DNA from: Zoogloea oleivorans
GTDB lineage: Bacteria > Pseudomonadota > Gammaproteobacteria > Burkholderiales > Rhodocyclaceae
NCBI RefSeq assembly: GCF_008107625.1
Contig: NZ_SDKK01000002.1
Coordinates: 97,756 to 161,755 of the forward strand
Direction: 5' to 3'
Length of the DNA: 64,000 nucleotides
A program made the position numbers and the translations under genes. Under the pieces are notes generated by a model. It did no database searches, had not been told where the DNA came from, and saw only the letters and a program-made list of their open reading frames with translations. Shown here one piece after another: positions 50,896 to 60,356 of the stretch. Numbering within the stretch: position 1 is the stretch's first letter; every line of letters starts with the position of its first letter.

Positions 50896-51837
50896 ATGGC
50901 CACCCTGTTATGGCTTCAAACCGGCGCCTGCAGCGGCGACACCATGTCGCTGCTCAACGCGGACAGCCCCTCCATCGAAAGCCTGATGCGCAAGGGCAGC
51001 ATTGAGCTGCTGTGGCACCCATCCCTCTCCGACACGCCACCTGGCGGGCTGGGCAAGCTGATCGCAGCCATCGAGGCCGGCACCCAGGCACTCGACATCC
51101 TGTGCGTTGAAGGCAGCCTCATCACCGGCCCCTTTGGCACCGGCATGTTCGACAGCTACCGCGGCCGCCCCAAGATCCAGATCGCCGAAGCCCTCGCCCG
51201 GCGCGCGCGTTACGTGGTCGCCGTGGGCACCTGCTCGGCCTTCGGCGGCATTCCCGCCGCGCCGCCCAATCCCACCGACTGCACCGGCCTGCAGTTCGAC
51301 CACGAACAACCGGGCGGGCTGCTGCCACCGGAATGGCGCTCCGGTGCCGGCCTGCCGGTCATCAACCTGGCCGGCTGCCCGACCCATCCGACCACCATCA
51401 CCCGCAGCCTGGCCATGCTCGCCCAGGATTTGCCGCTGGAACTCGACTTCCTCAACCGGCCACGCCTTTTCTTCAGCACCACGGTGCACCAAGGCTGCAC
51501 GCGCAACGAATACCACGAGTACGACGTCGAAGAGACCGTGCCCGGCGGCCGCGGCTGCATGTACTTCAACCTCGGCTGTCAGGGCCCCAGCACCCTGGCC
51601 AACTGCAACAGCGAACTGTGGAACGGGCGCAGCAGCAAGCCCCGCGCCGGTGTTCCGTGCTTCGGGTGCACCTCACCCGGCTTTCCACGGGATGGCGACC
51701 TGTTCCGTACCGAGAAAATCGGTGCGGTGCCGGTGACCCTGCCACTGGGCGTCTCCCGCGCCCACTACATGGCCTACAAGAACCTCGCCCACGCGGCCGC
51801 TCCACTGCGCGTAAAGAATCGCGAGATGGAGCCCTGA
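50896..51837 (+). CDS. [NiFe] hydrogenase small subunit with CxGD proximal motif
   Basis: A 313-residue Fe-S subunit that passes electrons from the NiFe site. There is no Tat signal, so it is cytosolic. The N-terminus GACSGDTMSLLNADSPSIES has C12-S-G-D15 where most hydrogenases have CxxC, so one proximal-cluster Cys is replaced by Asp. The other proximal ligands are in GTCSAFGG and LAGCPTHP. The distal cluster is HQGC...GRGCMYF...LGCQGP, and the medial cluster uses NCNS and PCFGC (three Cys). The opening resembles the soluble sensor/uptake types (HupU, HoxB), while CxGD recalls the actinobacterial group 1h enzymes, known to have a 3Cys-1Asp cluster. GGAG lies upstream. The large subunit follows after 11 bp. 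Confidence 0.9.
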   Translation: MATLLWLQTGACSGDTMSLLNADSPSIESLMRKGSIELLWHPSLSDTPPGGLGKLIAAIEAGTQALDILCVEGSLITGPFGTGMFDSYRGRPKIQIAEALARRARYVVAVGTCSAFGGIPAAPPNPTDCTGLQFDHEQPGGLLPPEWRSGAGLPVINLAGCPTHPTTITRSLAMLAQDLPLELDFLNRPRLFFSTTVHQGCTRNEYHEYDVEETVPGGRGCMYFNLGCQGPSTLANCNSELWNGRSSKPRAGVPCFGCTSPGFPRDGDLFRTEKIGAVPVTLPLGVSRAHYMAYKNLAHAAAPLRVKNREMEP

Positions 51838-51848
51838 AGGCACGCCCC

Positions 51849-53384
51849 ATGAGCCGCACCACCCTCAACATCGACCTCAACCGCGTGGAAGGTGACCTGG
51901 AGTTCCAGGTGGATCTGGACGGCAACCGGGTGGTGGACGCCCGCTGCGTCGGCACGCTGTTCCGCGGCTTCGAGCAACTGCTGATCGGCCGCGCGCCCAA
52001 GGACGGGCTGGTGATCACGCCCCGCGTGTGCGGCATCTGCGGCACCGCCCACCTGTACACTGCCGCGCTGGCGCTGGAGCGCATGGCCCAGCTGCCGGTG
52101 TCGCCCCACGCCACCCTCGTGCGCAACCTGTGCCTGATGGCCGAAAACGTGCAGAGCGACCTGCGCCAGAGCTTCCTGTTCTTCACCCCGGACTTCGTCC
52201 ATCCGCGCTACGCGGCGCAGCCCCTGTTCGCGGACATCGAGGCGGCCTTCGCCCCCATGAAGGGGCGCATCGTGCGCTCGACCCTCGCCGCCAGCCGCAA
52301 GGTGGTCGAACTGGTCGCCATCTACGGCGGCCAGTGGCCGCACTCCTCCTACATGCTGCCCGGCGGCATCACCCGCGGCGCCACCGCCCGCGACCTGATG
52401 GACTGCCAGGACATCGTGGACCGGACCATCGAGTGGTACGAACTCGACGTTATCGGCGACAGCCTCGACAACTGGCTGGCCCTCGACAGCGCCGACGCCT
52501 TCTTCAGCTGGCTCGACGCCGCCCCCCACGCCGCCAGCGCCCTCGGCCTCCTGACCCGCTTCGCCCGTGCCATCGGCCTGCACCACATCGGCGCCGGCGC
52601 CCGTTACTTTCTCAGTGCCGGCTCGTGGCACGACCCGCTGCGCTGGCAGCCACCCTACGGCGAGCCGGCCGGCCTGCTCCCCGCGGGCCTCTACCACGCC
52701 GACCACGGCCAGCTGGACGCCTTCAACCCGGACATCATCAACGAGCACGTGCGCCATTCCTGGTACCGCCCCTACCCGGGCGGGCGCCACCCCTACATCG
52801 GCGAAACGGTGCCCGACTACCAGCCCGACACCGACCGCTACACCTGGGCCAAGGCCCCCCGCTACGGCGACAAGGTGATCGAAACCGGCCCGCTGGCCGA
52901 ACTGCTCACCGGCGGCGACCAGCTCATCGTATCCCTGCTCGCCCTCGAAGGCCCCAACGCCTGGCTGCGCCAGTTTGCCCGACTGCGCCGTACCGGCCTG
53001 ACCCTGCACCTGATGAAGCAACACCTGGCCGAACTCGCCCGCCAGCTCGGCACGCCCCACTACCTGCCCCCGCCGGCCGGCGCCCTCGACCAGGGTGAAG
53101 GCTACGGCCTGGTACAGGCCGCCCGGGGCAGCCTCGGACACTGGATACAGGTAACAGACGGGCGCATCAGCCGCTACCAGATCGTCACCCCCACCGCCTG
53201 GAACGCTTCGCCGAAGGACAGCGCCGGCCAGCACGGCCACTGGGAAGAAAGCGTCATCGGGGTCGAACTGGCCGACCCGGCCGACCCCATCGAAATCGGC
53301 CACATCGTCCGCTCCCACGACCCCTGCCTGGTATGCACGGTGCACTTTGTCGGACGCGCGGAACGACACCGCTATGGCGTCTGA
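51849..53384 (+). CDS. [NiFe] hydrogenase large subunit
   Basis: A 511-residue catalytic subunit. Motif L1 is RVCGICGTAH (Cys61, Cys64) and motif L2 DPCLVCTVH (Cys493, Cys496), giving the four Cys of the NiFe site. After His499 there are 12 more residues (FVGRAERHRYGV), the extension normally cut by a specific endopeptidase after nickel insertion. The overall make-up is close to group 2 soluble enzymes. Regulatory hydrogenases usually lack such an extension, so this one appears to need full maturation. The protease gene overlaps its 3' end by 11 bp. hyp genes are not in the window. Confidence 0.93.
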   Translation: MSRTTLNIDLNRVEGDLEFQVDLDGNRVVDARCVGTLFRGFEQLLIGRAPKDGLVITPRVCGICGTAHLYTAALALERMAQLPVSPHATLVRNLCLMAENVQSDLRQSFLFFTPDFVHPRYAAQPLFADIEAAFAPMKGRIVRSTLAASRKVVELVAIYGGQWPHSSYMLPGGITRGATARDLMDCQDIVDRTIEWYELDVIGDSLDNWLALDSADAFFSWLDAAPHAASALGLLTRFARAIGLHHIGAGARYFLSAGSWHDPLRWQPPYGEPAGLLPAGLYHADHGQLDAFNPDIINEHVRHSWYRPYPGGRHPYIGETVPDYQPDTDRYTWAKAPRYGDKVIETGPLAELLTGGDQLIVSLLALEGPNAWLRQFARLRRTGLTLHLMKQHLAELARQLGTPHYLPPPAGALDQGEGYGLVQAARGSLGHWIQVTDGRISRYQIVTPTAWNASPKDSAGQHGHWEESVIGVELADPADPIEIGHIVRSHDPCLVCTVHFVGRAERHRYGV

Positions 53385-53841
53385 CGACATCCACATCATC
53401 TGCTTCGGCAACGAGCTGCACGGCGACGATGGTGTCGGCCCGGCTGTTCATGCCCTGCTTGCCACAAAGCGGCTGCCCTCCGGCGTGCGCCTGATGCGTG
53501 CCGACATCGCCGGGCTTGCCGCCATCGGCTGTTTCGACGGCTGCCGCCGCGCCGTGGTGGTGGATGCCCTGCGCGGCTTCGGTGCCCCCGGTTCGGTGCA
53601 CGACCTCGACGCCCTGCTCCTCGCCGAGGCCGCCGACACCGACGAAGCCCCCGGCGGCTTCCACGGCGCCGGCGTCGGCGCCCTGCTGCGCCTGCTTCCA
53701 CTGGCGCTCGCGCATCTGCCGGAAATCCACCTGATCGGCATCGAAATCGAGTCCACACAGCCCTTCACGCCCGGGCTCTCACACCCCGTCGCCGGCAGCA
53801 TCGCCCGTGCCGCCCGCAGGGTCATGGAACACCTGTCATGA
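53374..53841 (+). CDS. Hydrogenase maturation endopeptidase (HupD/HyaD family)
   Basis: A 155-residue cytosolic protease. CFGNELHGDDGVGPAVHALL is the family N-terminus, with the nickel-sensing acidic residue in the DDG region. AVVVDALRGFG corresponds to the central strand with the second acidic site, and a late GIEIESTQPFTPGLS follows. It removes the large-subunit tail once nickel is inserted. It overlaps the large subunit (11 bp) and the kinase gene (4 bp, ATGA), which ties all four genes into one translationally coupled unit. Confidence 0.9.
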   Translation: MASDDIHIICFGNELHGDDGVGPAVHALLATKRLPSGVRLMRADIAGLAAIGCFDGCRRAVVVDALRGFGAPGSVHDLDALLLAEAADTDEAPGGFHGAGVGALLRLLPLALAHLPEIHLIGIEIESTQPFTPGLSHPVAGSIARAARRVMEHLS

Positions 53842-55928
53842 GCACCGGCCGCACAATTCCAATCCGCCAGCTGCGCCAGGTCGCTGGCCAGCGCAACCGC
53901 CTGTGTGGCGTGGTAGACCTGCCCGGCCGACCGGGCCGACAGCACATCCTGATCATCAAGCGCGGGGCCGCCTGGACAGCCCTGTCCGCCACCTGTCCCC
54001 ACGAAGGCTACCGCCTTGACGAGAGCCCGGAAGACGAGGAAGGCCGCATCGTCTGCCCGGCCCACGGACTCAAGGTCGAAACCGAGGGCATCGGCCATAC
54101 GCTACCGGTGCGCAGGGACGGCGACGACTTCGTTCTCATCATGAACGATGAAGCGCCCCCCACTGCCACCTCCCAGGCGGACATCCAGCGCCTGCAGGCC
54201 GAGCTCGAAGCCCTGCGCCACGCCAACACCAGCCTCGAACAGCAGATCGGCGCCGTCACCGTGATGATGGACGCCATGGTCGACGAGGTCAGCGCCAAGT
54301 CCCGCCTGCTCGAAGAGCGCAGTGCCGAGCAGGCCCGCCTGAGTGCCTTCGTCACCAACGTGATGGACACCATGGACAGTCTGCTGCTGGTGGTGGACCG
54401 CTTCGGCTGCATCAAGCAGGCCAATGCCGCCGTCCGGCGCTGCCTGGGGATCGACCCAGCCAGCCTCGTCGGCAGCTCACCCGACAGCCTGCTCACCGCC
54501 GAAACCCTGGCCCCGCTGCACCAGGCTGCCCCCAGTGTCGCCGCCGGCAGCGTACTGTTCCGCACCATCCTGCTGCGCGGCAACCTGGAGATGGAAACCT
54601 GTATCGAAAGCCGCCTGCCCGACGCCACCCTGCGCCACTTCATGCTGCGCGCCTCAACCCTCCATGATCGCAGCGGCAAGCTGCAGGGCGTCGTCATCGT
54701 CGGCTCCGACATCACTGCCCTGCGCACCCGCGAGCAAGCCCTCAAGGACAGCGAGCAGCGCTTCCGCGACTACTCAGCGGTATCCTCCGACTGGTACTGG
54801 GAAACCGACGCCGAGATGCGCTTCACCGAATACATCGGCCCCAGCCGCAACAGCAAACAACTCATCGACATCGTGCGCGGCGCGCGACGGGAAGACTTCG
54901 CCACGGAAGAAGACCTCGCCGACACCACGAAATGGCTCGGTTACCACGATGCCGTGGCCCGGCGGATGGAGTTTCGCGACTTTGACTACTGCATCCGCCC
55001 CCACGCCACCGACCTGACCTGGCTCAGCGTGGCCGGCCTGCCGACGTTTTCGGCCAGCGGTGAATTCCTTGGTTATCGAGGCACCGCCAAGGACATCTCG
55101 GCCCGCAAGTCCATCGAAGCCGAACTGCGCCGCCACCGCGACCACCTGTCCGAACTGGTCGCCGCGCAAACCGCCGACGTGGTCGCCGCCAAGGAGGCCG
55201 CCGAACGGGCCAACCACCTGAAGAGCGAGTTCCTGGCCAACATGTCGCACGAGTTCCGCACTCCGCTGCACGGCATCCTGTCCTACGCCCGGCTCGGTGA
55301 AACCCGTACCGGCCAGGCGCCGGACGAGAAGATCATCAATTACTTCGAGCGCATTCACCAGAGCGGCAGCCGCCTGGGGGTGCTGGTCAATGACCTGCTC
55401 GATCTGGCCAAACTTGAATCCCGACGGGTGGACTTCATGCTCCGTCTGGCCGACATGGCCACCGTCGTGGAGCGGGTCCACAACGACCTGGGCGCCCTCA
55501 TGACGAGCAGCGGCATCACCCTCGCCATCAACTGCCAGACAGCCAGCACTGTCGCCCTGATCGACACCCAGCAGTTTCACCACGCCGTGCAGAACCTGCT
55601 CTCCAACGCCATCAAGTTCTCACCGGAAGGCAGCACCATCACCGTCACCCTCAGCGACGCCATGCTCGGCAAACGGGAAGCCCTGGCCCTCACCGTGCAT
55701 GACCGGGGGATCGGCATTCCGCCCGGTGAAGAAGAACGCATCTTCGACAAGTTCGTGCAGAGCAGTGCCACCAAGACCGGCGCCGGCGGCACCGGTCTTG
55801 GCCTCGCCATCACCCAGGAAATCGTCCGCGGCCACAGCGGCACCATCTCGGCACGCAATCACCCGGACGGTGGCGCAATGTTCGAGATCCGCGTGCCGCG
55901 TGCCGGGCTGCCTCAGTCCGGCACGTAG
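53838..55928 (+). CDS. Rieske-PAS-PAS histidine kinase fusion
   Basis: A 696-residue soluble sensor kinase. Residues 8-103 form a Rieske domain: C53-P-H55, a 17-residue spacer, then C73-P-A-H76, the complete C-x-H...C-x-x-H [2Fe-2S] ligand set. A coiled coil runs about 112-165. PAS1 is about 168-295 (MDSLLLVVDRFG...), PAS2 about 303-422 (WYWETDAEMRF, GYRGTAKDIS). The HisKA H-box has MSHEFRTPLHG with His471. N and G boxes follow in NLLSNAIKFS, DRGIGIPPGEEERIFDKF and GTGLGLAITQ. No membrane segment is seen. The fusion with a hydrogenase suggests that the Rieske centre receives electrons or senses redox state and sets kinase activity (inference). No response regulator lies beside it. Confidence 0.9.
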   Translation: MSTGRTIPIRQLRQVAGQRNRLCGVVDLPGRPGRQHILIIKRGAAWTALSATCPHEGYRLDESPEDEEGRIVCPAHGLKVETEGIGHTLPVRRDGDDFVLIMNDEAPPTATSQADIQRLQAELEALRHANTSLEQQIGAVTVMMDAMVDEVSAKSRLLEERSAEQARLSAFVTNVMDTMDSLLLVVDRFGCIKQANAAVRRCLGIDPASLVGSSPDSLLTAETLAPLHQAAPSVAAGSVLFRTILLRGNLEMETCIESRLPDATLRHFMLRASTLHDRSGKLQGVVIVGSDITALRTREQALKDSEQRFRDYSAVSSDWYWETDAEMRFTEYIGPSRNSKQLIDIVRGARREDFATEEDLADTTKWLGYHDAVARRMEFRDFDYCIRPHATDLTWLSVAGLPTFSASGEFLGYRGTAKDISARKSIEAELRRHRDHLSELVAAQTADVVAAKEAAERANHLKSEFLANMSHEFRTPLHGILSYARLGETRTGQAPDEKIINYFERIHQSGSRLGVLVNDLLDLAKLESRRVDFMLRLADMATVVERVHNDLGALMTSSGITLAINCQTASTVALIDTQQFHHAVQNLLSNAIKFSPEGSTITVTLSDAMLGKREALALTVHDRGIGIPPGEEERIFDKFVQSSATKTGAGGTGLGLAITQEIVRGHSGTISARNHPDGGAMFEIRVPRAGLPQSGT

Positions 55929-58324: not shown

Positions 58325-58960
58325 TCAGATCAGGCCAAGGCGCAGCGCCAGCCGGGTCAGCTCGATGTCGCTGCGCACGCCGAGCTTGCTCTTGATCTGG
58401 TAGTGGCTGTTCTGCACCGTCTTGGCGGAGATCGACAGCCGCGCACCGATGTCCTCCGCGCTGCAGCCGTCGAGCAGCAGGCGCAGGATCTCGAACTCCC
58501 GCGGGGCCAGCTCGGCCAGCGGCTCGCGCGGCCGTTCGATGAGGGCCAGCGCCAGTTCGGGCGCGATGTCCGGGCTGATCACCTGGCGCCGCGCCGCCAC
58601 CTGGTACACGGCGGCCACCAGCACATCCGGCGGGCTGCTCTTGGTCACGTAACCCAGTGCCCCGGCGCGCAGGGCCTGGGTGGCGAACAAGGGCTCCCGG
58701 TGCATGGTGAACACCAGGATGCGCGCGTCGGCGTCGCGCTGCAGCAGGCGCCGGATCAGTTCCACCCCGCCCATGTCGGGCAGGCCCAGGTCGAGCACCA
58801 GCACATCCGGCAGCAGTGCCTTGAACTGCTCCAGCGCCTCGCGGGCATTGGCCGCCTCGCCGACAATGGCCAGGTCGGCGCGCGACTCCAGCAAGCGCCG
58901 GTAGCCTTCCCTCACGATGGCATGGTCGTCCACCAGCACCAGACGGGTCTTCTCAAGCAT
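58325..58960 (-). CDS. NarL/LuxR-type response regulator
   Basis: A 211-residue transcription factor. The receiver domain has acidic pocket Asp11-Asp12, phosphoacceptor Asp57 (VLVLDLGLPDMGG), Thr/Ser and Lys of the switch (GYVTKSSPPDV). The C-terminal LuxR HTH reads LAPREFEILRLLLDGCSAED, then RLSISAKTVQNSHYQIKSKL. Encoded after its kinase with an 8-bp overlap. Regulon unknown. Confidence 0.92.
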   Translation of the reverse strand: MLEKTRLVLVDDHAIVREGYRRLLESRADLAIVGEAANAREALEQFKALLPDVLVLDLGLPDMGGVELIRRLLQRDADARILVFTMHREPLFATQALRAGALGYVTKSSPPDVLVAAVYQVAARRQVISPDIAPELALALIERPREPLAELAPREFEILRLLLDGCSAEDIGARLSISAKTVQNSHYQIKSKLGVRSDIELTRLALRLGLI

Positions 58961-60356
58961 GTTCTTCCTCGTGTTCCACCATTGCCGAGGCCGGAAACGC
59001 CGCCTCGACGCGCATGCCGCAGGGTACGCAGCGCGTCATTGCAAAGCACCCGCCCAGCGCCTCGACCCGCTCGTGCATGCCCAGCACGCCCAGCCCGCTG
59101 CCCGCCGTGCTGAGCGGAGTGCCCTCGCCGTCGTCCTCGACCACCAGGGTGCAGGCGTCCGCCTCACGCCGCAGGCTCACCGTCACCCGGCCGGGCGCCG
59201 CGTGGCGCAGGGCGTTGGTGAGGCATTCCTGGACGATGCGGTAGAGGCTCACCGTCAGCTCGTCCGGCAGGTCATCGACCTGCCCTTCGACACGTAACTC
59301 GAATACGCACTCGGGCAGCCGGCGCCGCCAGCCCCCGACCAGTTCCTCGAGCCCGGCGTGCAGGCCGAATTCCTCCAGCCCCACCGGACGCAACTGGAGC
59401 AGGATGCCCTGCAGGCTTTCCATCATGTGGGCGGTGACCGACGCAATGGCCCGGGCCGCCGGCAGCAGCGCCGGTTGCGGCCCGCGCACGCCCTCGGTAA
59501 TGAACGCCGCCTCGGCGCCGATGGAGGTGAGGCACTGGCCGAATTCGTCGTGGAGCTCGCGCGCGAGGCGCCGCCGCTCCTCCTCGCGTACGGCCAGCAG
59601 GCGCTGGGCCAGGTGGCGCTGGCCGGCGATGGTCTTCTGCAAGCGCTCGGCCAGATGATCGAAGCCGCTGGCAATGCGGCGCAACTCGATGAGGCGCGGA
59701 CGCGGCATGCGGGCAGCCAGATCGCCCGCCTCCATGCGCCCGAGCACCGCCAGAATGGCGTCCGTTGGTCCCAGCGCGCGGCGCACAGGCAGATAGACAA
59801 GCAGGTTGAGCAGCAGGATGCCGACGGTCATCCCCAGCACCGTGCGAATCTGGTGCCAGAGTTCCACAGCCTCGCTGTCGAGGTTGGGCGTAACGACAAA
59901 CTCGCCGACCTTCACGCCCGGATACTGGCCAATCGCGCCTCCGTAACTCACCTCCGGCCCGATCACGCGGGCCAGCAGCCAGCGCACGAGCACCGGCGGA
60001 TCGGCGCCATCGTCAAAACAGCGCTGGATGGCCGGACGCTTGTAGATGTCCTCGACTGCCACACAGATGCCGAGCAGCGGGCCGATACCGTCGAGGGACG
60101 ACAGGTCCATCGACTCCAGACTGCGCCGGAACACGTCACGCGGCTGGGTCGCCTCGCCGGCGAGCAGGCGCTCCACGGTACCGCCGGTGCGCGCAATATG
60201 GCTGCGGATGCGTTCCTGCGCCTGCTGCAAGACCACGCCGCTGGCGATCAGGCCGATCACCAGCGCAAACAGCGTCACCCGCAACAACAGGTGACGCTTC
60301 AGATCGACGGCCCTGGCGTGCCCGTCCGCCACCGCATCGGTGCCGCGTAGCTGCAT
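58953..60356 (-). CDS. Membrane sensor histidine kinase, HisKA_3 type
   Basis: A 467-residue kinase. TM1 is about 25-45, then a periplasmic sensor of about 120 residues with two Cys (GICVAVEDI and IQRCFDD), TM2 about 174-194 and a HAMP-like region. The dimerisation box EEERRRLARELHDEFGQCL carries the phospho-His, and HATPase N and G boxes follow (ECLTNALRHAAP, GLGVLGMHERVEALGG). UhpB/NarX architecture, signal unknown. The start ATG at 60356 has only a weak ribosome site. Confidence 0.88.
   Translation of the reverse strand: MQLRGTDAVADGHARAVDLKRHLLLRVTLFALVIGLIASGVVLQQAQERIRSHIARTGGTVERLLAGEATQPRDVFRRSLESMDLSSLDGIGPLLGICVAVEDIYKRPAIQRCFDDGADPPVLVRWLLARVIGPEVSYGGAIGQYPGVKVGEFVVTPNLDSEAVELWHQIRTVLGMTVGILLLNLLVYLPVRRALGPTDAILAVLGRMEAGDLAARMPRPRLIELRRIASGFDHLAERLQKTIAGQRHLAQRLLAVREEERRRLARELHDEFGQCLTSIGAEAAFITEGVRGPQPALLPAARAIASVTAHMMESLQGILLQLRPVGLEEFGLHAGLEELVGGWRRRLPECVFELRVEGQVDDLPDELTVSLYRIVQECLTNALRHAAPGRVTVSLRREADACTLVVEDDGEGTPLSTAGSGLGVLGMHERVEALGGCFAMTRCVPCGMRVEAAFPASAMVEHEEEHA

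Follow-up and report, generated by a model that had tools for sequence, protein, structure and literature searches.

A group 2c-type [NiFe] hydrogenase operon with a Rieske-bearing histidine kinase in Zoogloea oleivorans: a probable cytoplasmic H2-sensing system

The analysed stretch of DNA (64,000 nucleotides of the Zoogloea oleivorans genome, contig NZ_SDKK01000002.1, hereafter the window) contains a four-gene operon at positions 50896-55928, which encodes, for the cells of a sludge bacterium, a [NiFe] hydrogenase small subunit (HydS), a large subunit (HydL), a maturation protease and a Rieske-PAS-HisKA-HATPase kinase. The operon is probably a cytoplasmic H2-sensing system built on a group 2c hydrogenase, with an output protein that would carry its own electron-accepting [2Fe-2S] module. 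A broader proposal, for which we see the chances as about even, is that operons of this type are modular, electron-wired sensors, in which a fused or adjacent Rieske domain would accept electrons as the signal, and that evolution would have swapped a phosphorelay or cyclic di-GMP (c-di-GMP) output behind a constant input.

The initial annotation had described four closely spaced genes for a hydrogenase, its protease and a kinase with a complete Rieske motif, and the coordinates as well as the Pfam and NCBIfam matches agree with this description. HydS and HydL are separated by an 11-bp gap, HydL and the protease gene overlap by 11 bp, and the protease and kinase genes overlap by 4 bp. Pfam recognised Oxidored_q6 and NiFe_hyd_SSU_C in HydS and NiFeSe_Hases in HydL (E = 5e-75), and the protease matched HycI with 24.8 bits (cut-off 23) and the NCBIfam family TIGR00072 with 85.5 bits (cut-off 47). 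A twin-arginine motif was absent from the first 60 residues of the four proteins, and none of them contained a transmembrane-like stretch, the best 19-residue hydropathy value being 1.44 versus 2.34 for a neighbouring kinase used as the control. Judged by these features, all four proteins look cytoplasmic. No twin-arginine (Tat) signal, cytochrome b or NAD module was found in the four proteins and genes, as had been noted at the outset, and a HucM-like module was likewise missing among the four genes.

The N-terminal domain of the kinase was identified as a Rieske domain by several lines of evidence. Pfam placed it at residues 33-90 (E = 5.7e-8, 33 bits, cut-off 20.3), and the ligand set is complete (C53-P-H55 ... 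C73-P-A-H76). The four ligands and one arginine were the only invariant residues of the domain in 32 sequences (33 minus L092, a degenerate member excluded from the count); the same five residues were invariant in an alignment of 24 rows, in which the identity to the window domain was 20-63%. Near-copies were excluded from alignment A3. The invariance of the ligands at an identity as low as 20% indicates that the metal centre has been kept. Searched against the PDB, the Rieske profile matched Rieske ferredoxins best. An AlphaFold2 model of the first 330 residues consisted of the Rieske domain, a single 66-residue helix and a PAS domain; the top structural matches of this model were PAS proteins, so the Rieske domain was folded separately. 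The separate model had a mean predicted local distance difference test (pLDDT) score of 91, and Foldseek ranks 1-28 were Rieske ferredoxins or oxygenases with probabilities of 0.98-1.00, the E-values of this small domain being 0.006 or higher. A chance or misread motif was ruled out by the Pfam match, the profile, the fold and the invariant ligands. In high-potential Rieske proteins of the bc1 type, two cysteines form a disulphide; these cysteines are absent from the window kinase, which suggests, at the level of sequence, a lower-potential centre.

The class of the hydrogenase was assigned from a tree of 84 rows, which did not include L077 (HydS 100% identical to that of the window) or L110, a locus without a large subunit. 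The window fell into a 79-row clade with Methylobacter tundripaludum (L094; support of 98 in the Shimodaira-Hasegawa-like approximate likelihood ratio test, SH-aLRT), outside which lay four rows of regulatory hydrogenases (RH, group 2b) and Huc, the placement of Huc, L109, L115 and L154 being unsure according to a long-branch warning. A nested clade of 45 rows with the window and M. tundripaludum (here the window clade) had a support of 99, and the same value was obtained with a mixture model after removal of Huc. Greening et al. 2016 are reportedly the source of group 2c. M. tundripaludum is described as the nearest relative of a sequence called group 2c (PMC4853749), and Methylobacter genomes are reported to carry 2c hydrogenases (PMC12810054). 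HydDB lists group 2c as "Diguanylate cyclase-linked (putative)" and gives its role as undetermined, perhaps H2 sensing through c-di-GMP (PMC5037454). The L2 motif of the window (SHDPCLVCTVH) differs from the quoted 2c consensus (SFDxCLVCTVH) at one place, the same as in Thiomargarita. In the place of the diguanylate cyclase or phosphodiesterase putatively linked to 2c, the window has a histidine kinase, and other members of its clade have GGDEF-EAL enzymes. Since HydDB words the c-di-GMP link as putative, the window is filed as a 2c variant and not as a typical member. On sequence criteria, the hydrogenase is thus assigned to the group 2c type as a variant, the 2c status of M. tundripaludum being taken from the papers.

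Ten ligand positions of the three HydS Fe-S clusters were unchanged in all 79 rows of the group 2c clade. The one constant difference, likewise seen in 79/79, is Asp15 at the proximal cluster, where the four RH rows have Cys and Huc has Asn. His198 at the distal cluster, which is Gln in Huc, was kept in 79/79. The cysteines of the HydL motifs were kept as well, in 77/77 rows with the column filled for L1 (RVCGICG) and in 79/79 for L2. The closest PDB structures were HucS (7uur, 276 bits) for HydS and HucL (7uus, 323 bits) for HydL, with the next molecule at 112 and 209 bits, respectively. Identity with HupUV/RH (2b) was rejected, in agreement with the distinction from HupUV/HoxBC drawn in the initial annotation: the window is not part of the clade that the four 2b rows form (support 100), has a 12-residue extension of HydL and a protease gene, and differs in its cluster ligands. 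Group 2a (Huc type) is marked by three [3Fe-4S] clusters, each missing the fourth ligand; at the sequence level, membership of this group was rejected because of His198 and Asp15.

Maturation proteases trim the large subunit after insertion of the metal centre, and the C-terminal extension of HydL would be expected to be removed in this step. The relatives compared were the best 80 of 180, with a readable downstream protein in 74 (not in L077, L082, L110, L114, L145 and L146). In 74 relatives, 2-17 residues follow the last metal-binding motif of HydL (at least 6 in 73/74), which fits the presence of the protease gene; a protease match followed the large subunit in 67 of the 74 readable relatives. 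The RH large subunit encoded in the same genome has no such extension. Two irregular loci were seen: the large subunit gene is split over two frames in L079 and L083 (two Zoogloea metagenome-assembled genomes, MAGs), by assembly error or decay, and in Thiorhodococcus minor (L117:10447-12714) the protease and a histidine kinase share one 755-residue open frame, i.e., a fusion.

A search for the gene order across genomes, proposed in the initial annotation, found it again in other species; the order of hydrogenase, protease and signalling gene is therefore not an accident of the Z. oleivorans genome. A downstream protein was scored as Rieske-bearing when the intact motif lay within its first 120 residues. 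In the window clade, this applied to 28/42 readable downstream proteins, and the outputs behind the Rieske domain were swapped between lineages. It precedes a kinase in Rhodocyclales (Rieske in ten loci, a readable kinase behind it in nine) and a GGDEF-EAL protein in Methylococcaceae and Neptuniibacter. All 16 Methylococcaceae loci of the window clade have the Rieske domain, with GGDEF-EAL behind it where contig and frame are readable, as do both Neptuniibacter loci. In Pseudoalteromonas (L115), Rieske is a separate 109-residue frame between the protease and the kinase. Pfam reported Rieske above its cut-off in 7/9 further proteins from four named lineages and one other genome, the two negatives being the L115 kinase and L092, a Rieske-like N-terminus with one ligand lost. 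The remaining Rieske-less proteins of the window clade start at the coiled coil or have a different build. Behind the hydrogenase genes of L079, L081 and L084 (Z. ramigera NBRC 15342) stands a Rieske-less kinase whose first part is the coiled coil, and in L081 and L084 its gene shows the usual 4-bp overlap; a fourth Rieske-less Zoogloea kinase (G007) lies on a broken contig. No strong candidate for a stand-in Rieske gene was found in the Rieske-less Zoogloea, the match in G013 reaching 29 bits in a 118-residue frame. The Rieske domain is thus not obligatory in this type of operon.

Where present, the Rieske domain shares its history with the hydrogenase. The distances of the two were strongly correlated (Mantel r = 0.94, 30 rows, L092, L073 and L074 left out; none of 9999 permutations was as high), also within Rhodocyclales (r = 0.87, 11 rows) and within Methylococcaceae (r = 0.88, 16 rows). 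On the tree, the Rieske state changed at least six times in the 78 rows scored, and three of the changes were forced by well-supported branches; L114, L123, L145, L146 and L155 were left unscored, and for L082 the state was read on another contig of its MAG (G017). The simplest history, short of proof, is that the domain was gained once and then lost several times. Its repeated loss suggests that the coiled coil may already provide a contact, to which the Rieske domain adds.

Rieske domains of this family were also sought away from hydrogenase loci. A profile built from the hydrogenase-linked domains, which would miss more distant Rieske-kinases, was run against 399 genomes of the order, 369 of the class and 398 of the phylum, the draws partly overlapping; within these sets, no fusion of a Rieske domain of this family with a signalling protein was found apart from a hydrogenase. 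The search recovered two additional fusions, in G097 and G809, both with GGDEF-EAL outputs and both directly behind HydS-HydL-protease. In the order search, 64/399 genomes gave a match at E 1e-6 and three exceeded 80 bits, namely the window, G097 and G371, the last being the same contig as L086 and matching by construction; the remaining matches scored 43 bits or less and were mostly short frames resembling ordinary Rieske ferredoxins. The class search returned 8/369 at E 1e-9, the window alone above 43 bits. The phylum search returned 3/398: the window, G809, where the match lies next to a hydrogenase, and G942, where it is a 110-residue Rieske protein that stands alone. No hydrogenase gene was recognised on the 4-kb contig of G942, and the best HydL match in this genome was only 39% identical.

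[NiFe] hydrogenases split H2 at their NiFe site, from which a relay of Fe-S clusters carries the electrons onward. We propose that the mature HydSL heterodimer oxidises H2, that electrons would pass through the three Fe-S clusters of HydS and on to the N-terminal Rieske [2Fe-2S] domain of the signalling protein, and that the redox state of this domain, transmitted via the 66-residue helix and the PAS domains, would set the activity of the output, which would be the histidine kinase here and the GGDEF-EAL enzyme in methanotrophs. The complex between hydrogenase and kinase, the electron transfer to Rieske and its effect on kinase activity are inferred, and the same holds for the direction of the response and the regulator targeted. 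In Ralstonia, the acceptor that takes up electrons from the RH in the cytoplasm has been called "yet unknown" (PMC5665086). HucE has a Rieske motif and is required for the activity of the group 2a hydrogenase Huc (PMC6883350), and thus sets a precedent for group 2 hydrogenases that work with a Rieske partner.

A number of observations weigh against this proposal, most of them on the side of a Rieske domain that is dispensable. In the window clade, 13/42 loci lack an intact Rieske and keep the hydrogenase and the signalling protein, so coupling can work without it; in the other group 2c clade, it was found in 0/32 downstream proteins. The two motif matches in that clade lay in unrelated frames (L142, out of the kinase frame; L155, between the hydrogenase genes), and the correct frames of L127 and L117 contained no Rieske motif in the part inspected. 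As a side observation, many outputs of that Rieske-less clade (L123-L156) share, by eye, an N-terminal helix like EIRVxREAAEITAxLVVxQFExTE, a possible hydrogenase docking element. Among the Zoogloea kinases of this family, Rieske is present in 6/11 and missing in 5/11. The initial annotation had named kinases encoded apart from any hydrogenase as the case that would speak against it; one exists, in the Zoogloea draft MAG G008, where the kinase is Rieske-less, stands behind a small-subunit remnant and may reflect an assembly fault. At this locus (L075:2380-2760), hydS-hydL-protease is apparently deleted, and a match to the first hydS codons lies directly before the kinase. In L115, the separate Rieske frame and the kinase frame overlap, so that a frameshift in the assembly could have produced the split. 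Finally, no response regulator adjoining the kinase on its strand was recognised in 12 loci with one receiver-domain query; the only hit, in three Zoogloea, was the NarL-type regulator of the window, which lies at a distance of 2.4-2.5 kb on the opposite strand. A rival reading is that Rieske is a second, independent sensor (of general redox state, O2, nitric oxide or cluster supply), added to an H2 sensor that signals through contact of the hydrogenase with the coiled coil and PAS domains, as in HoxBC-HoxJ. We regard it as unlikely, though it deserves serious attention: hydrogenase and output persist without Rieske in L079, L081, L084, the Contendobacter clade and others, and most Rieske-less outputs still start with a coiled coil, by eye, the exceptions being L120 and L154. 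An independent sensor is at odds with the position of every fused Rieske with a visible neighbourhood, which is behind this hydrogenase (G017, at a contig end, is uninformative), with its divergence, which tracks that of the hydrogenase, and with the free-standing Rieske frame inside the L115 operon.

It is quite improbable that the Rieske domain aids complex assembly or docking with a cluster unused for signalling. The authors of the HucE study also allow for the role of an assembly factor (PMC6883350), some relatives do without the domain, and L092 retains the domain region despite the lost ligand; against this role, the four cluster ligands are among only five invariant residues at identities down to 20%, which points to a metal centre that has been kept. 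We consider it improbable to a similar, perhaps slightly greater, degree that the operon encodes a true uptake hydrogenase, e.g., a quinone-linked one like Huc, with a kinase that is only co-transcribed and reports on another signal. Huc, the nearest solved structure, passes its electrons to menaquinone, which binds in the vicinity of Tyr229 and Tyr301 (PMC10017518; an offset of one was applied to match residue numbers with the paper). Tyr301 is kept as Y291 in HydS (44/45 rows of the window clade and 34/34 of the other), so that a quinone acceptor remains conceivable, whereas Phe replaces Tyr229 in 41/45 and 34/34 rows; the RH rows have Glu and Phe at the two positions. HydS D210, at the quinone-site position of Huc Lys212, is Asp in 42/45 rows of the window clade, which bears the Rieske domain, and in the other clade it is Arg in 34/34; the residue follows the clade and not the Rieske state. 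An uptake role is further opposed by the missing respiratory modules among the four genes and by the kinase or c-di-GMP enzyme that repeatedly follows the protease in relatives.

The features of the operon are collected in Table 1. Further [NiFe] large subunits are encoded in the same genome, which also has an RH (HupU/HupV without the C-terminal extension); the window operon would thus be the second hydrogen-linked signalling system in one cell. At the RH locus (L009, G000:C46:84001-102000), the frames read include a putative sigma-54-type regulator upstream and a putative PAS kinase downstream. Downstream of the window operon, on the minus strand (58325-60356), lies a pair of a NarL-type response regulator and a membrane histidine kinase; the regulator is also kept in three other Zoogloea, and its link to the hydrogenase is not obvious. 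A Z. oleivorans MAG (G018) encodes a small subunit 98% identical to HydS of the window. The identical HydS of L077 comes from a 5.5-kb contig filed under a Thiobacillus MAG, probably owing to a binning or naming error.

Table 1. Coordinates of the operon genes and kinase domains in the window
Feature	Coordinates	Strand	Basis
HydS, [NiFe] hydrogenase small subunit, group 2c type (by sequence)	50896..51837	+	313 aa, PF01058 + PF14720
HydL, [NiFe] hydrogenase large subunit	51849..53384	+	ATG at 51849, 511 aa, PF00374
HydL C-terminal extension after CTVH, FVGRAERHRYGV, 12 residues	53346..53381	+	motif position, relatives
Maturation protease (HycI/HupD family)	53374..53841	+	155 aa, TIGR00072, PF01750
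Soluble Rieske-coiled coil-PAS-(PAS)-HisKA-HATPase kinase	53838..55928	+	696 aa, Pfam, hydropathy, AlphaFold2 (residues 1-330)
Rieske [2Fe-2S] domain, residues 1-105	53838..54152	+	PF00355, profile, predicted fold
Rieske ligand motif C53-x-H55 ... C73-xx-H76	53994..54065	+	invariant 24/24; 32/33
Long helix, residues 113-178	54174..54371	+	AlphaFold2 model; Rieske-less kinases L079, L081, L084 start here
PAS domain	54357..54725	+	PF08448 residues 178-296, PF00989 residues 174-292
Probable second PAS, approximate limits	54759..55112	+	inferred; PAS_3 in homologues L085, L086; no Pfam report in window
HisKA (phospho-acceptor)	55221..55421	+	PF00512, residues 462-528
HATPase_c	55563..55901	+	PF02518, residues 576-688

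On the question of how a sensory [NiFe] hydrogenase informs its kinase of H2, the window operon offers a candidate acceptor built into the signalling protein and visible by electron paramagnetic resonance (EPR). Natural controls are at hand in the Zoogloea relatives with and without Rieske, the split and the degenerate versions and the two kinds of output. With these and an EPR-visible centre, electron transfer versus conformational coupling is directly testable. If the proposal is true, common methanotrophs would signal H2 through c-di-GMP. The initial annotation had suggested an undescribed H2/redox-signalling device. This holds in part: the hydrogenase belongs to a named group with proposed H2 sensing via c-di-GMP, which means that a link to signalling is not entirely new, and the Rieske module is the part for which no description was found. 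In the open-licence literature searched, which does not include the founding 2c paper, and with only part of the searches directed at Rieske, we found no description of a Rieske input module, of the swap between kinase and c-di-GMP output or of the split form. The word Rieske is absent from the HydDB paper (PMC5037454) and of PMC4853749; in the portions available, PMC12727194 lists Rieske with NifU and EAL-GGDEF-PAS neighbours without Rieske, and PMC4465626 mentions Rieske and GGDEF in unrelated places.

Among known systems, group 2c is the closest, sharing with the window the clade with M. tundripaludum, the cytoplasmic location, the C-terminal extension with its protease and the signalling gene behind; the window differs by its output, which is a histidine kinase instead of GGDEF. 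HupUV/HoxBC with HupT/HoxJ (2b) likewise combine a cytoplasmic hydrogenase with a PAS histidine kinase, and the kinase of the RH (HupT/HoxJ) is not known to have an Fe-S domain. The 2b RH differs in its separate tree branch, in a CxxC at the proximal cluster (4/4 rows) and in a large subunit without the C-terminal extension (PMC10073562). Huc of Mycobacterium smegmatis resembles the window system as the nearest structure and in its operon-encoded Rieske-motif protein needed for activity; it differs in that HucE has a NifU-like domain and no described signalling output, that Huc reduces menaquinone, and that its cluster ligands are Asn (proximal) and Gln (distal) versus Asp and His in HydS. The Rieske-type ferredoxins of aromatic oxygenases have the same fold and ligand motif and gave the best structural and profile matches, whereas the domain of the window is fused to signalling domains and encoded together with a hydrogenase.

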